Assembly: GCA_029242715.1 (NCBI GenBank)
Contig: JAQWTL010000033.1
Coordinates: 62,001 to 126,000, forward strand
DNA: 64,000 nt
Direction of reading: 5' to 3'
Origin: Phycisphaerales bacterium
GTDB taxonomy: Bacteria > Planctomycetota > Phycisphaerae > Phycisphaerales > SM1A02
A program made the translations under genes and the position numbers. The notes beneath the pieces were generated by a model. That model had not been told where the DNA came from and did not search any database. It was given only the letters and a program-made list of their open reading frames with translations. This document shows, one piece after another, positions 2,833 through 55,119 of the stretch; within the stretch, counting starts at the first letter, position 1, and every line of letters begins with the position of its first letter.

Positions 2833-3183
2833 ATGGGTCAAACAGGCAAATCCAAGAAGCAGGCAGCGAACAAGGCCAACCCATTAAAAAGGGCTGCGCC
2901 AGTAACCGTCGCTTCCGGAAAAAGGCGCCAGCCTGAACCAGCGCCAGCCGTGAATAGTCCATTGACAACATCAGCAGGATCCAGCAATGGCCGTATCGTC
3001 ATCGCCATCACACTGGTGGCCCTGGCCGTACCGGTCATCATCTCGGTCATCATGATTTCAAGGACCATTCCAGCCCAGAGTTCACCTGATCTGTTCACCC
3101 CCTGGTGGGCCTACCTCATCTCGTTTGGCGTGATTGCCGCGACCTGGTGCTTCTATATCGTGTGGGCCAGAAAGACAACCTGA
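2833..3183 (+). CDS. Small basic membrane protein, unknown function
   Basis: A 116-residue protein with a Lys/Arg-rich N-terminus (GQTGKSKKQAANK), a Pro/Ala/Ser linker, and two hydrophobic segments at about 52-74 and 88-108. An AAGGAG ribosome site 10 bases upstream fixes the start at 2833 rather than an upstream in-frame codon at 2803. The topology suggests cytoplasmic N-terminal and C-terminal ends. No known family is recognised. Confidence 0.6.
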   Translation: MGQTGKSKKQAANKANPLKRAAPVTVASGKRRQPEPAPAVNSPLTTSAGSSNGRIVIAITLVALAVPVIISVIMISRTIPAQSSPDLFTPWWAYLISFGVIAATWCFYIVWARKTT

Positions 3184-3246: not shown

Positions 3247-4566
3247 GTGAATGACAACATCACTGCACCAGGACCCATCGCTGAAGTCGTTGAAACTGCG
3301 GCCGCTGAAGTCGTGCATGGAAATGCATGGATCACCAACCAGGCTGCAGTGCTGGGGATCCTGCTCATCATCCTGGCAGTCATCTTCCGCACGGCCTCCC
3401 GGGAAACAGGTGGATGGAAAAAGTTCTACAGCATTGTTCCCTCAATCCTGCTGTGTTACTTCATCCCCGGACTTCTGGGAACCTTCGGCATCATTGGAGA
3501 TCCCTCCGGTGATCTCTACTACGTTGCCAGCCGCTTCCTGCTTCCAACCTGCCTTGTCTTGCTGTGCCTTGCCATTGATCTGCCCGGCATTGGACGCCTG
3601 GGGCCCAAGCTCCTGATCATCTTCTTTACCGCGACCGCAGGCATCATCCTTGGTGGACCTTTCGCAGTCTGGATCGTCAGTCTCTTTGACCCAGTATCTG
3701 TTGGTGGCGAAGGCGCCAACGCAACCTGGCGTGGACTTTCAACCGTTGCCGGCTCATGGATTGGTGGTGGCGCGAACATGACCGCCATGAAGGAAGTCTT
3801 TGGGCCATCCAAAGAACTGTTCTCTGCAATGATCACGGTCGATGTCATCGTGGCCAACATCTGGATGGGCTTCATGCTCTGGATGGCCGGCCGCTCCGGG
3901 ATGTTTGATCGTTGGCTCAAAGCAGACATGACCGCCATAGATGATCTGGAGCGTCGCGTGGAGACCCTCTATGCCGGCAAGGCACGCATCCCTTCCACTG
4001 CGGATCTGATGACCATCTGCGCCGTCGGCTTCGCTGTCACGGGCGGAGCCTTCATCGCGGCAGAAGCGATCGCGCCCTGGTTTGAAGCCAATGTTCCGTG
4101 GGGCGCACGGTTCAGTCTTACCAGCATGTTCTTCTGGTTGATCGTGATTGCCACAACAGCAGGCCTGATCATCTCCGCCTTCCCAGCGGCTCGCAAATTG
4201 GAACACGTCGGAGCCAGCAAGGTCGCCAGCCTCTTCCTCTACATTCTTGTGGCTGTCATCGGCCTGGAAATGGATCTCAGGGCCATCGCGGATTACCCCA
4301 TGCTCTTTGTGGTCGGATTGATCTGGATGGGCTTCCAGGGGATCCTGCTGTTCACGGTTGCCAAGTTCATCAAGGCACCGAGTTTCTTCATTGCCGTGGG
4401 ATCACAAGCCAACATCGGTGGCGCCGCCTCGGCACCCATCGTGGCTGCCGCCTTCAATCCACGCCTGGCACCGGTGGGTGTCCTGCTTGCCGTACTGGGT
4501 TATGCGGTTGGGACGTATGGCGCCTGGCTCTGTGCCAACCTGATGCAGGGCGTCAGTCCGGGCTGA
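3247..4566 (+). CDS. DUF819 family multi-pass membrane protein
   Basis: A 439-residue protein with about ten hydrophobic segments across its whole length. Sequence stretches such as GSWIGGGANMTAMKEVFG near residue 170 and SQANIGGAASAPIVAAAF near residue 385 fit the DUF819 (YjcL-like) family, whose role is unproven but which resembles ion or solute carriers in fold and gating glycines. The start is a GTG with a GGAG ribosome site about 9 bases upstream; there is no nearby in-frame ATG. Its 3' end overlaps the convergent gene ending at 4553 by 14 bases. Confidence 0.8.
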   Translation: MNDNITAPGPIAEVVETAAAEVVHGNAWITNQAAVLGILLIILAVIFRTASRETGGWKKFYSIVPSILLCYFIPGLLGTFGIIGDPSGDLYYVASRFLLPTCLVLLCLAIDLPGIGRLGPKLLIIFFTATAGIILGGPFAVWIVSLFDPVSVGGEGANATWRGLSTVAGSWIGGGANMTAMKEVFGPSKELFSAMITVDVIVANIWMGFMLWMAGRSGMFDRWLKADMTAIDDLERRVETLYAGKARIPSTADLMTICAVGFAVTGGAFIAAEAIAPWFEANVPWGARFSLTSMFFWLIVIATTAGLIISAFPAARKLEHVGASKVASLFLYILVAVIGLEMDLRAIADYPMLFVVGLIWMGFQGILLFTVAKFIKAPSFFIAVGSQANIGGAASAPIVAAAFNPRLAPVGVLLAVLGYAVGTYGAWLCANLMQGVSPG

Positions 4567-32834: not shown

Positions 32835-33364
32835 CACCTCCCCTTGCCCCCAGACAATCACCGGAAATGACAATACTCCCTGAGGCTCCTCCCACGATTC
32901 CAGAGTGGGTCGTACACCCGAACCCCGTGTGGCTCAGCGTCCGCCCCTCTCAGGATGAAGCCAGTGCTGTGATTGCACATGTCTCCAACGTCTCGTATCT
33001 GCACTGGATCGATCATGCCGCAGAACGGGCTCTTTCTACAGCAGGTTGGACGTACAAGGATCTTCTCGAGCAGCAAGCCATGTTCTTTGTTGCAAGACAT
33101 GAAATCGATTACCGGCTTGAAGCCGATCAGAATGAACTGCTGTACATGGCAACCTGGGTTCGTGATGTTCGTCGCGTGAAGTCCTGGAGAGACACCATCA
33201 TCTGGAGAATCACCGAAGGACAGCCCGCCGTAGTCTGCACTGCATCAACCCTCTGGGTCCATGTTGATCTTGACACGAGACGACCAACACGCGTCCCGGC
33301 CGACATGACTGCAGCACTCGCACCATTGCAGCACACTGATCCGCCATGGAGAACCCGAGCCTGA
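32831..33364 (+). CDS. Hotdog-fold acyl-CoA thioesterase (4HBT type)
   Basis: A 177-residue protein. WLSVRPSQDEASAVIAHVSNVSYLHWIDHAAERAL at about 34-68 corresponds to the 4-hydroxybenzoyl-CoA thioesterase pattern (catalytic Asp near WIDHAAE). FVARHEIDYRLEADQNELLYMATWV near 86-110 is the central hotdog helix and sheet. The substrate acyl-CoA is unknown. It overlaps DUF971 by ATGA at its start and the glycosyltransferase-like gene at its end, so the three form one unit. Confidence 0.78.
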   Translation: MTPPLAPRQSPEMTILPEAPPTIPEWVVHPNPVWLSVRPSQDEASAVIAHVSNVSYLHWIDHAAERALSTAGWTYKDLLEQQAMFFVARHEIDYRLEADQNELLYMATWVRDVRRVKSWRDTIIWRITEGQPAVVCTASTLWVHVDLDTRRPTRVPADMTAALAPLQHTDPPWRTRA

Positions 33365-34443
33365 TGCACCTCCTAGCGATCATTGACAAATCACGACGAC
33401 AGCAGGAAAACAACGCCATTTCGGATGTTCTTGGTGGCATTCAAGAAGCTGGGATCCAGTTGACCGAAGTGGTTGCGCCACCTGGCATCCCGGGAGAAGA
33501 ACCCCGTGGAATGGCCACTTCTGAGCCACTCATCGCACCCATGCCGGCGCCCTGGTTTCAGAGATCACGCGTGCTTGCCGGCCTGCTGCGCGACATCGGA
33601 AGACCGTTGCCGGATGTGGTCCTCTGCATGGGCGATTCTGCCGGAAATCTCGCTGTTGATATCGCTGATGCACTGGATTGCCCCCTGCTCGCAGAGTGCT
33701 GGTTGAGCAGCCATCTCAAGCGACCTCCTGTTCGACCACACCTTGTTGCTGGTTATGTAACGGCGTCTGCTGGACTGGCTTCAGCACTTCGAGAACGTAA
33801 GCAACATGAGCTCATCGTCACCGTTCCCTTTCCCGTTCATCAGCCCAGCCAGATGGAAGATCTTCCCGAGGCGGCCCCTTCAATCGCCATCCTTGATTCA
33901 GCCATGGATCACAAGTCGGCAAAGTGTCTTCTTGATGGACTGCGAGGTGTAGTCCAGGAGATACCCGACCTGCAGATCTGCCTTGAACTCACCAAGGCCA
34001 GCGGAGATCCAATCTGGAAGTACGCCGAGTCAATCGGGCTCCTTGATCGAATCTCATCAATCAGCAATGCATCCAACCTTGGACCGCTGGTCAGCGACTG
34101 CACCCTGACAATCCTCGCCTCATCCGAGTTCGCATCCAGATCCGTGGTGGATATGGCCATGGCCCGTGGCCGGGTGGTCGTCCAGGCAGACCACCCCCTG
34201 CTCTCAGAAGCCCAGCGGTCACATCAGTGCATCCTGTTGGAACCCACCCCCGACAACTGGGCCCGAACGATTCTTGATCTGCTCCATGATCCAGATCGCC
34301 GAGCCAAACTGGGCCAAGCTGCTCAGCAACACGTTTTGACTCGAAATGACCCCGATGTCGTTTACAGCACATGGACCCAACTTCTTCATGAAGTCAGCAA
34401 AGACATCACCTATCCCTTTGCTACCACTGGAACAAGCCGCTAA
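33364..34443 (+). CDS. Putative GT-B glycosyltransferase-like protein
   Basis: A 359-residue protein. DVVLCMGDSAGNLAVDIADALDCPLLAE near 84-111 fits the N-terminal Rossmann domain, and LDRISSISNASNLGPLVSDCTLTILAS with VVDMAMARGRVVVQAD near 228-282 resembles the C-terminal nucleotide-sugar domain of GT4-like enzymes, but the typical catalytic E-x7-E is weak (SSEFASRSVVDMA). I chose the ATG at 33364, a TGATG overlap with the thioesterase; an upstream ATG at 33346 is in frame. Donor and acceptor are not known. The transcript may run into the terminator at 34658. Confidence 0.55.
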   Translation: MHLLAIIDKSRRQQENNAISDVLGGIQEAGIQLTEVVAPPGIPGEEPRGMATSEPLIAPMPAPWFQRSRVLAGLLRDIGRPLPDVVLCMGDSAGNLAVDIADALDCPLLAECWLSSHLKRPPVRPHLVAGYVTASAGLASALRERKQHELIVTVPFPVHQPSQMEDLPEAAPSIAILDSAMDHKSAKCLLDGLRGVVQEIPDLQICLELTKASGDPIWKYAESIGLLDRISSISNASNLGPLVSDCTLTILASSEFASRSVVDMAMARGRVVVQADHPLLSEAQRSHQCILLEPTPDNWARTILDLLHDPDRRAKLGQAAQQHVLTRNDPDVVYSTWTQLLHEVSKDITYPFATTGTSR

Positions 34444-34534
34444 ATCGGTGGCTGAACCGGCTTCCTTTCTGCTGCGAAATGGCAAAGATTCTGAAGTTTT
34501 TTGGACTAGATGGGACCATGCAGTCGATCAGCGT

Positions 34535-34631
34535 GCGGTACAGGGGCCTATAAAGCACCCACAGACCTGCCCAGCAGGCCCCATGGCATCCAGAAGGATG
34601 CCGTACTAACCGCGACCAGATGATTGGTCGC
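34535..34631 (+). ncRNA. Candidate structured RNA (multi-helix junction) upstream of an intrinsic terminator
   Basis: Four complementary arm pairs are visible. GCGGTAC (34535-34541) pairs with GTA and CCGC (34603-34605 and 34610-34613) with a small bulge, closing a junction. Inside, GGGGCCT (34543-34549) pairs with AGGCCCC (34576-34582), and GGCATCC (34585-34591) with GGATGCC (34596-34602) around an AGAA loop. GCGACCA (34612-34618) pairs with TGGTCGC (34625-34631). CCTGC/GCAGG at 34566-34578 can form an alternative hairpin competing with the first inner helix. No protein frame with a ribosome site is seen. The element could be a free sRNA or part of the 3' UTR of the preceding gene. It matches no known RNA class I recognise. 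Confidence 0.5.
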
Positions 34632-34657
34632 CGACAACTTGCTCTTTCTCCCCTCCT

Positions 34658-34695
34658 CCCCGTCGAGGCCTCGTGCTTCGACGGGGATTTTCTTT
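34658..34695 (+). terminator. Intrinsic terminator after the DUF971-thioesterase-glycosyltransferase unit or the RNA candidate
   Basis: CCCCGTCGA (34658-34666) pairs with TCGACGGGG (34678-34686) around an 11-base loop, followed by ATTTTCTTT. The T-run lies only on the plus strand, so it ends plus-strand transcription, not the minus-strand aminotransferase transcript. Confidence 0.85.
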
Positions 34696-34711
34696 GGAAC
34701 GATCCGCCCAG

Positions 34712-35863
34712 CTAGGCCATCGCCTTGGCAATGGCCTGAAGCCCTTCTTCCAGAGCCTCATCATCAGTGGCATAGCTGATACGCATGTGCGTATCACGAT
34801 TGCTGAAGACGCCGCCTGGAATGGCAATCACATTATGAGCGAGGAGGGATTCAGTGAATTCCGTACCGGTCATGCCAAGGCTGGAAGGTATCGCGGGGAA
34901 GGCGTAGAAGGCTCCCTCTGGTATCGCCAGGTCCGTCACAGGAGAGAGCAACTCCACGACGCGATCACGCTTGCCTTCGTAGGCCTTGACCCACGGAGAC
35001 ATGTCCACGTCGTGTGCGCTCATCACAGCATGCTGGGCCATGCTTGGTGCACAGACAAATGAGTACTGCTGGAACTTGGCCATTTCATGAATGAGCCAGG
35101 TTGGCCCAGCTGCAAATCCGAGTCGCCAGCCGGTACACCCGTAGTTCTTTCCAAATCCACGGACAATGAGCATGTCACTGCCATGATGTGCAGGCGTCGG
35201 CGATCGACCACGTGAATCCCGTGCAGCCGAGTAGGTAAAGAGGTCATAGATTTCATCCGACAGGAGAACGACGCCACGTTCACGGCACAAGGTCGCCAGA
35301 TCACGCATCTCATCATCAGTGAGCACGATGCCAGTTGGATTGCCCGGCGAATTGATGATGACAAACTTGGTTCTGGGCGTCAGGAGTGGTTCAACACGTT
35401 CGGCGGTCATCCTGAAGTCTGGATAGGTATCGCAGCAGACCGGCTTGGCACCAGTCATGGCCCCCAACGCGGGATAAACCACGAAGTGCGGATCTGGAAT
35501 GATGAATTCATCGCCTGGATCCAGCAGCGCCCAGGCCGCCAGCACCAATGCGCCGCTGGTACCTGAAGTCACCATGAAATCAATGTTTTCATCCTCGAAG
35601 TCCCATTCAATGTCCTCCGTCAGGAAGGATTGAATGGAAGACAGCAAGGTCGAATGGCCACGGGTCAGGGTGTAACCATTGGCATCCGATTTGATGGCCT
35701 CGATGGCGGCTGCCTTGATTTCTTCTGGAACAGGAAAATGAGGCTGTCCGATCGACAGGTTGATCGGGTTCTCCAACTGCGCACCAAGTTGAAAGGCGCG
35801 TCGGATTCCAGAGGCATCGATCTGCCCTGTTCGCTGGCTGAGCAGTTGTCCCTCATCAAACAT
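34712..35863 (-). CDS. PLP-dependent aminotransferase, class I/II (aspartate type)
   Basis: A 383-residue enzyme. NLSIGQPHFPVPEEI near 35-49, NSPGNPTG at 171-178, SDEIYD at 202-207, and the PLP Lys239 in GFGKNYGCTGWRLGF are the landmarks; Arg247 fits the phosphate contact. Likely activity is an alpha-amino-acid transaminase of the aspartate or aromatic group; the substrate cannot be named. The ATG at 35863 has an AGGA site; a TTG at 35869 is in frame. It is the last gene of the acpS set. Confidence 0.88.
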   Translation of the reverse strand: MFDEGQLLSQRTGQIDASGIRRAFQLGAQLENPINLSIGQPHFPVPEEIKAAAIEAIKSDANGYTLTRGHSTLLSSIQSFLTEDIEWDFEDENIDFMVTSGTSGALVLAAWALLDPGDEFIIPDPHFVVYPALGAMTGAKPVCCDTYPDFRMTAERVEPLLTPRTKFVIINSPGNPTGIVLTDDEMRDLATLCRERGVVLLSDEIYDLFTYSAARDSRGRSPTPAHHGSDMLIVRGFGKNYGCTGWRLGFAAGPTWLIHEMAKFQQYSFVCAPSMAQHAVMSAHDVDMSPWVKAYEGKRDRVVELLSPVTDLAIPEGAFYAFPAIPSSLGMTGTEFTESLLAHNVIAIPGGVFSNRDTHMRISYATDDEALEEGLQAIAKAMA

Positions 35864-53064: not shown

Positions 53065-55119
53065 TCAGTCATCATCAGCATCGGGGCTGAAGGCGGCTAC
53101 GACATCAGCCTGGATATTCGGAGGCGTATTCTCGTCATGTGAATACTCCATTGAATAACTACCCGCCCCGGCCGTAATCGACTTCAACTGGGCCGCATAG
53201 GTCATGACCTCTGCCAAGGGGGCCTCGGCGTGCATGACGACCTGGTTGCCTGGAAGCACATCCGTTCCCTGAATTCGACCACGACGACCCGAGAGATCCG
53301 AGGAGATATCTCCGATCGCATCCTGGGGGACCGTGATCTCGAGCTTGACGAAGGGTTCGAGAAGAACCGGATGGGCCTTCTGTACGGCATCGACGAATGC
53401 TCGCTTGCCCGCCGTGACGAATGCGATTTCCTTGGAATCCACGGGGTGATGCTTGCCGTCATATACCGAAACTCGGACATTCTGCATCGGGTAACCAGCG
53501 ACTGCGCCACCCACCATCACCTGCCGGACACCCTTCTCAATGGCTGGAAGGAACTGCTTGGGGACTGACCCACCGAAAGTGGCGTCCTCGAAAAGCAGAC
53601 CACCGGTCATTCCTTCCTGATCCGATTCAACCGGTTCAACGCGAAGGAAGACCTCGCCGAACTGACCCGATCCACCAGATTGTTTCTTGTGACGATGATG
53701 ACCTTCAGCCTTGCCCGTGATGGTCTCCTTGTAGGCAACCTTGGGTGGGCGAGAATCAACTTCGACACCGTAACGGTCCTTGAGCATGCGCAACTTGGCG
53801 CGGATATGGTTTTCACCAAGTCCGCGTACAACCAGTTCACTGGTCGCAGCCACGCGTTCGATCTCGAAGGTGGGATCCTCCGCTGACATCTTGGACAGCG
53901 CGTCGCCGATCTTTGATTCAGCACCTTTACTGGTACCCTCGATTGCCAGGCCGAACATCGGCTTGGGAGTCGGGATTGGCTTCAACGCAACCTGGCCCTT
54001 GTCATCCGTGTGCAACACGCTGTTGTAGTCAATCTCGTCGACCTTGGATACCGCAACGATATCGCCAGGAATCGCCATATCGACTTCCTTGCTGTCCTTG
54101 CCCTGAAGTTCAAAGAGGTGGGCGACTCGAACGGGCTTGCGTTCATCATCAACCTTCGGAGTCGCACCGGCTTTCAATGTGCCCTGATGAACACGCATGT
54201 AGCTCATCTTGCCGACATACGGGTCAGAAGCGACCTTGAAGACGTGTGCAACCAGTGGCTTCCCACCATCGGCCTCGGCCACCATGTCCTCATTGCCATC
54301 GGATTTGATGGCATGGAAAGGACGAGGATTGCCTTCGGCAGGATTCGGGAAGAACTCGGCGATCTGGTCAAGCAGTTCACAGACACCGGTTCCCTCACGT
54401 GCAGACGTGAACAGAATCGGAACAAGATGGCCTTCTCGCATGGCACGCTTGAAGGGTTCCTCGAGTTGCTCAGGTGTTACCTCACCTTGCTCGAGGTATT
54501 GCTCCATGAGCGCCTCATCGACTTCGACAACCTGGTCAACCAGGCCCGTGTGGAATTCAGAAACAGAGCCCAGATCGGATTCGCCTTCTCCAGACTTGAA
54601 ACAACGAATAACGCTCTTGCCACCATCAGCTGGAAGATTGATCGGGCGACAAACCGAACCGAATGTCTCCTGGATGGTGGAGATCAGATCTTCAAGATCA
54701 CCTCCGGAATCCAGTTTGTTGATGATGATCGCCCTCGGGAGGTTCCGATCGGCGGTGACTTTCATGAGTCGACGTGCCACGGGATCAAGCCCGATGGCAG
54801 GATCAAGTACGAGCACCATGGTCTCGACTGCAGGAAGGCTGGCAATCGCCTTGCCAAGAAAATCATTTCGTCCAGGGGTATCGATGAGGTTGAGACGGCA
54901 TCCACCATGAGTCAGGTGAAGAACACTGGAATCCATGCTGAATCCCATCTCCTTCTCGAGATCATCCCAATCAGAAACGGTATTGCCATCTTCGACGCGT
55001 CCAGCACGCCCAATAACGCCAGAGGTTGCCAACATCGCCTCGGCCAGAGTCGTCTTTCCGGCTCCGGATGTTCCGGTCAATGCGACGTTCCTGATCTTCT
55101 CAATCGTATGGCTAGGCAT
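53065..55119 (-). CDS. EF-G-like GTPase (paralogue of elongation factor G)
   Basis: A 684-residue translation-factor GTPase. G1 is GTSGAGKTT at 15-23 (canonical EF-G has AHIDAGKTT), G3 is DTPGRNDF near 78, G4 is INKLD near 133 and G5 is TSAREG near 240; domains II-V follow, including the RGLGENHIRAKLRMLKDRYGVEV segment and GAVAGYPMQNVRVSVYDGKHHPVDS. It is not the main fusA: the P-loop and switch differ and it is not near ribosomal protein genes. Such paralogues can act in ribosome recycling or back-translocation; which is not clear. It heads the TPR, HEAT, dehydrogenase, MATE operon. Confidence 0.85.
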   Translation of the reverse strand: MPSHTIEKIRNVALTGTSGAGKTTLAEAMLATSGVIGRAGRVEDGNTVSDWDDLEKEMGFSMDSSVLHLTHGGCRLNLIDTPGRNDFLGKAIASLPAVETMVLVLDPAIGLDPVARRLMKVTADRNLPRAIIINKLDSGGDLEDLISTIQETFGSVCRPINLPADGGKSVIRCFKSGEGESDLGSVSEFHTGLVDQVVEVDEALMEQYLEQGEVTPEQLEEPFKRAMREGHLVPILFTSAREGTGVCELLDQIAEFFPNPAEGNPRPFHAIKSDGNEDMVAEADGGKPLVAHVFKVASDPYVGKMSYMRVHQGTLKAGATPKVDDERKPVRVAHLFELQGKDSKEVDMAIPGDIVAVSKVDEIDYNSVLHTDDKGQVALKPIPTPKPMFGLAIEGTSKGAESKIGDALSKMSAEDPTFEIERVAATSELVVRGLGENHIRAKLRMLKDRYGVEVDSRPPKVAYKETITGKAEGHHRHKKQSGGSGQFGEVFLRVEPVESDQEGMTGGLLFEDATFGGSVPKQFLPAIEKGVRQVMVGGAVAGYPMQNVRVSVYDGKHHPVDSKEIAFVTAGKRAFVDAVQKAHPVLLEPFVKLEITVPQDAIGDISSDLSGRRGRIQGTDVLPGNQVVMHAEAPLAEVMTYAAQLKSITAGAGSYSMEYSHDENTPPNIQADVVAAFSPDADDD

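Follow-up and report, generated by a model that had tools for sequence, protein, structure and literature searches.

A candidate small RNA family of the Phycisphaerales with a near-invariant C/U-rich seed beside a covarying intrinsic terminator

What is the function of a gene-free stretch of 161 bases that ends in an intrinsic terminator and lies between two convergent genes of a planctomycete? We analyzed such a locus at positions 34535–34695 of the window, a 64,000-nucleotide piece of a Phycisphaerales contig. A first-pass annotation had described it as a structured RNA with switch-like alternative pairing, either a free small RNA or a regulated 3′ UTR. The helices that it named are all found in the plus-strand sequence: a closing helix of GCGG (34535–34538) with CCGC (34610–34613), extended by GTAC (34538–34541 with 34603–34606); inner hairpins GGGGCCT/AGGCCCC (34543–34549 and 34576–34582) and GGCATCC/GGATGCC (34585–34591 and 34596–34602); a hairpin GCGACCA/TGGTCGC (34612–34618 and 34625–34631); and a competing pair CCTGC/GCAGG (34566 and 34574). 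The location is also as described, after the end of a plus-strand gene at 34443 and before a minus-strand aminotransferase gene with its stop codon at 34712. The terminator (34657–34695, plus strand) is present as a hairpin with a T-run, although its stem is longer than the nine base pairs given: 11 pairs were counted by hand and 13 in the predicted fold (34657–34687), followed by ATTTTCTTT. The region 34535–34710 folds at −75.9 kcal/mol with a z-score of −5.56, and none of 200 shuffled sequences folded as well; the body and the 3′ end taken alone gave z-scores of −4.83 and −5.66, respectively.

The body (34535–34636, plus strand) is thus stable in this genome, and its proposed exclusivity is real in the sense that the closing helix and the GCGACCA hairpin overlap at 34612–34613, where the minimum-energy and centroid folds of the body differ. 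When projected on five genomes of the same genus, however, pairing is mostly disrupted in the closing helix, in the two inner hairpins, and in the hairpin formed by GCGACCA. The bodies of these genomes take differing folds, which often include a hairpin immediately 5′ of the conserved stretch described below, and in several of them an unrelated hairpin takes the place of GCGACCA/TGGTCGC. As the bodies are hard to align, our verdict on the switch rests also on these separate folds. Neither an aptamer nor alternative helices, as expected of a riboswitch or a cis-acting leader, are conserved, and such a leader would precede a same-strand gene, while the downstream gene of the window is on the minus strand and those at other loci are mixed and mostly unrelated. 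A metabolite or temperature switch controlling termination through two exclusive folds would account for the alternative pairings and the significant folding of the body, but it is largely refuted by the loss of its helices even within the genus; we saw no conserved partner for antiterminator pairing, and the orientation of the downstream gene also speaks against it. We consider this explanation hardly credible.

Conservation lies instead at the 3′ end. A DNA search of 60 relatives recovered the block 34634–34696 from several genera, with 90–96% identity; the body gave a match in the closest relative only, at 77% identity. We defined a conserved module of 53 nucleotides (34640–34692, plus strand), consisting of the unpaired UCUUUCUCCCCUCC and the adjoining terminator hairpin, and ten copies of it served to construct a covariance model, R1. 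Within the family, R1 matched 133 of 181 genomes and 40 of 45 genera; within the order Phycisphaerales, it matched 189 of 301 genomes and 99 of 147 genera. Eighty loci were fetched and the 76 strong matches among them aligned, with two doubtful low-scoring extra loci (L064 and L129) excluded. The model was then rebuilt as R2.

The stem conservation that the first-pass annotation had named as a check was found for the terminator, with compensatory changes, and not for the closing helix, the two inner hairpins, or the GCGACCA hairpin. All 11 terminator pairs hold in the five same-genus genomes, and among the 76 aligned loci both sides have changed in 9 of the 11 pairs. The number of compensatory cells was 114 vs. 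34 in shuffled alignments, and none of 500 shuffles reached the observed value; the alignment was fitted to the covariance model, and the count leans toward structure for that reason, although a ten-sequence alignment made without the model agrees in direction.

The best conserved part of the element is not the hairpin but the stretch before it. The seed UCUUUCUCCCCUCC (34643–34656, plus strand) is 14 nucleotides long, C/U-rich, and predicted to be unpaired, and it contains CCUCC, an anti-Shine–Dalgarno motif. With 77 loci lined up at the motif, some 16 positions were near-invariant, including all 14 of the seed, while the upstream region carried about 0.04 bits per position. The 14-mer TCTTTCTCCCCTCC occurred 103 times in 201 genomes of the order, compared with 2 occurrences of the reversed control, and is present as a single copy in the genome under study. 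Outside the main group, about 18 of 27 seed occurrences inspected by eye directly adjoin a terminator, mostly with an unrelated stem; a script count was also made over the fetched seed loci, but these were picked by the motif and the resulting terminator rate is biased. The paralogous copies have terminator stems of the GGAAAACGUCGGCC type in the own family and of the GCGCGUAGCC type in another family. Since the paralogues keep the seed but carry unrelated terminator stems, the 14 bases are selected for themselves. We also considered coding on the opposite strand, where GGAGGGGAGAAAG followed by ATG resembles a ribosome-binding site and start codon, and rejected it: the ATG is absent in 33 of the 76 loci, and the rest give short frames of mixed length.

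The same data bear on the idea that the element is just a strong terminator or a dispersed repeat and lacks a function of its own. It does end in an ideal intrinsic terminator. Nevertheless, a terminator could dispense with the seed, which is the best conserved part, and the seed stays constant beside freely varying terminator stems; genomes usually hold one to three copies of the element. We regard this explanation as very unlikely.

The strong matches of R2 were confined to the order, with weak ones elsewhere in the class; across 294 genomes from the phylum, an E-value of 1e-4 was reached outside the order in just two, both with partial matches. Among the weak matches, several genomes of one other family of the class share a related sequence, GUGUUUCUUCCCUCC, with ACCCCG-type stems after it. 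Seven loci from another family of the class (L286–L288, L290, L291, L294, and L295) have GCGAAGTGTTTCTTCCCTCCTTACCCCGTAGG and a terminator in common and apparently represent a separate, related RNA family. The form CCCTTTTCCCTCCCTCCGCCCCCGAGCCTTGTGCTCGGGGG, a second and more distant one, was seen in two genera of the family (L073:2998–3044 and L055:2484–2530), with weak matches in many more genomes. An exact-pattern scan of GTDB genomes returned at least 120 stretches, and among the matches listed, most were in records titled Phycisphaerales, Phycisphaeraceae, or Planctomycetota, while those in clearly unrelated bacteria (Clostridia, Azospirillum, Betaproteobacteria, and others) had no terminator and look like chance. 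Module copies were also seen in records titled Vicinamibacteraceae and Candidatus Kuenenia (L154 and L171), possibly mislabeled planctomycete contigs. No match was found in a search of phage DNA. A search of Rfam 15 found no family above its gathering threshold; the sole line at E-values up to 10 was anti-hemB (RF02837), which scored 12.7 bits at an E-value of 1.8 while its gathering score is 49.5, and its likeness is the terminator-like 3′ end alone, which we judge to be chance. We conclude that the module represents an unrecorded small RNA family of the Phycisphaerales, of a general kind that is already known.

Does the element have a transcript of its own? The upstream neighbor in the window (33346–34443, plus strand) is a glycosyltransferase-like protein, with a Pfam Glycos_transf_1 match at an E-value of 5e-5, below the cutoff of that family. 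A weak terminator-like hairpin directly after its stop codon (34445–34460) could end the transcript of that gene. We compared the neighbors of the other loci using simple open reading frame calling, by which gene limits are approximate. An upstream gene on the same strand was found at 64 of the 76 loci, often 85–200 nucleotides away, and 34 of 72 upstream neighbors, spread over four families, cluster with the glycosyltransferase of the window. Both patterns would also fit an element that serves the upstream gene as its 3′ UTR and terminator and perhaps yields a processed 3′-UTR-derived small RNA, although many of the cases reflect one inherited arrangement. In other families, however, the upstream genes are unrelated (an amidase, a ROK kinase, and others) and the downstream genes mostly so; this variation of the upstream gene among families weakens the regulated 3′ UTR option of the first-pass annotation. 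Further evidence against it comes from one genome (L086) in which tandem copies of the module lie 184 nucleotides apart (3089–3141 and 3273–3325), as would separate genes, and from sigma70-like promoters that we recognized by eye close upstream of some paralogous copies. A promoter-like block between the upstream gene and the element likewise disfavors the 3′ UTR, which we hold to be improbable. Instead, as in a stand-alone trans-acting small RNA, the element has a conserved unpaired seed and an intrinsic terminator of its own and shows no tie to one neighboring gene.

The promoter-like block, TTTTTTGGAC-N18-CGAT at 34497–34528 on the plus strand, is a two-box element and a candidate promoter of the small RNA; it lies after the upstream gene and ahead of the body. 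In the genus alignment, it takes the form TTTT-N-TGGAC-N18-CGAT and 16 of about 30 columns are invariant, against almost no invariant columns in the body. The exact two-box pattern was found at the small RNA locus only, in five of six genus genomes, the sixth (G003) carrying a variant. An expectation-maximization motif search of 37 family loci outside the genus recovered AAAA-n-TGnnG...CCGA upstream with the same geometry; its log-likelihood was 244 vs. 108–123 for mononucleotide shuffles, a figure inflated by the relatedness of the sequences. A search for a sigma70 promoter at the window locus gave no match, and no sigma70 promoter common to all loci was found (mean z-score 0.24), although some members of other families match well. 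The spacing of the two boxes (6 + 17 to CGA) resembles what we take to be that of ECF-sigma promoters, for example those of Bacillus subtilis sigma-X. The position of the block would place the 5′ end near 34535, the very start given by the first-pass annotation, and transcription would proceed from the block to the terminator, giving a putative plus-strand transcript of about 160 nucleotides (34535–34695). The structured RNA with a terminator proposed in the annotation is accordingly supported, and a free small RNA is its best reading: the terminator covaries over 76 loci, and the start given lies where a conserved promoter-like block ends. Judged from the sequence, it is well supported that the locus is a small RNA gene, most likely a free-standing one.

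The sequence of the seed suggests how such an RNA may act. The 16S rRNA of the same genome ends in ..CACCUCCUUUCU, and the CCUCC of the seed is a perfect match to its anti-Shine–Dalgarno; given these two sequences, pairing with Shine–Dalgarno regions is the simplest function. We thus favor, with a probability of roughly 0.6, a stand-alone small RNA gene with its own promoter and an exposed seed that pairs with the Shine–Dalgarno regions of mRNAs. The RNA would consist of a fast-evolving 5′ body, the exposed 14-nucleotide UCUUUCUCCCCUCC, and directly after it the intrinsic terminator, with a total length of about 160 nucleotides here and probably less in other families. The exposed stretch would serve as a base-pairing seed whose CCUCC mimics the end of the 16S rRNA. 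Pairing with the GGAGG-like Shine–Dalgarno region of mRNAs would then lower their translation. The terminator hairpin would set the 3′ end and hold the seed single-stranded, and the body may act as a spacer or stabilizer. We infer both the anti-Shine–Dalgarno mechanism and the action in trans on mRNAs from the sequence.

The search for individual targets, made over the window and the genus, yielded no conserved one. Over 41 genes of the window, the seed pairing had a mean z-score of −0.38, slightly better than shuffles. The best pairing at a start codon was with an EF-G-like gene (−24.7 kcal/mol, z-score about −4), located at window position 55119 on the minus strand, the start region of which, AGGGGGGUCAGAAGGAGU, pairs unusually well with the seed. 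The pairing is strong in the window but is not kept beyond the closest relative, and we rejected this mRNA as a target. Elsewhere in the genus, we found no 13-nucleotide complement of the seed apart from purine-run look-alikes. No Hfq was found in the genomes of 21 relatives, in a search whose control was positive in 5 of 14 known genomes, and the small RNA probably acts independently of it.

A different role of the seed would be that of a binding site for a protein such as a CU-binding RNA chaperone or a cold-shock protein, with the small RNA being a sponge of that protein or stabilized by it and mRNA pairing being secondary. The near-invariance of all 14 positions over the order and in paralogues would be consistent with this, as would the lack of a conserved mRNA complement in the genus and among the EF-G-like orthologues and the lack of a detected Hfq to serve as chaperone. 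Against it, the seed holds a perfect CCUCC, the anti-Shine–Dalgarno of the organism's own 16S tail, and known C-rich seeds of this type work by pairing. We see protein binding as possible but unlikely. Invariance of the whole seed would nevertheless seem to exceed the need of short pairing alone. It is conceivable, if rather doubtful, that the element is an order-wide regulator working without Hfq, its invariant 14 nucleotides being carried on sibling RNAs with interchangeable terminators and acting through an RNA-binding protein or directly on the ribosome, not on a few chosen mRNAs.

The favored reading, a trans-acting small RNA with a pairing seed, has parallels in other phyla. In RsaE/RoxS and LhrC of Firmicutes, unpaired C-rich stretches pair with ribosome-binding sites, and multicopy siblings of the LhrC type share their seeds. 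The Phycisphaerales element similarly has a C-rich unpaired stretch and siblings with a common seed, but no sequence relation to these RNAs was found (no Rfam match), and its siblings share the seed only, their terminators being unrelated. The 6C RNA of Actinobacteria is likewise a small RNA with C-rich pairing segments and a terminator; its C-runs are placed in two hairpin loops, however, and no Rfam match to 6C was found here. In RFMSmelA075 and RFMSmelA099 of Rhizobiales, the anti-Shine–Dalgarno motif CCUCCUCCC is perfectly conserved in RNAs that otherwise diverge (PMC3927594). A fixed anti-Shine–Dalgarno motif amid diverging RNA is what we observe as well, though in a different phylum and in a different setting: in the Rhizobiales RNAs, three or four hairpins carry the motif in their loops, and here it occurs once, in a single unpaired stretch against the terminator.

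In a literature search, we found no report of small-RNA regulation in Phycisphaerae. The covariance model can annotate hundreds of genomes at once, and an order-wide small RNA with a seed that stays fixed amid turnover of the rest would provide a handle on possible mRNA regulation without Hfq in these bacteria.
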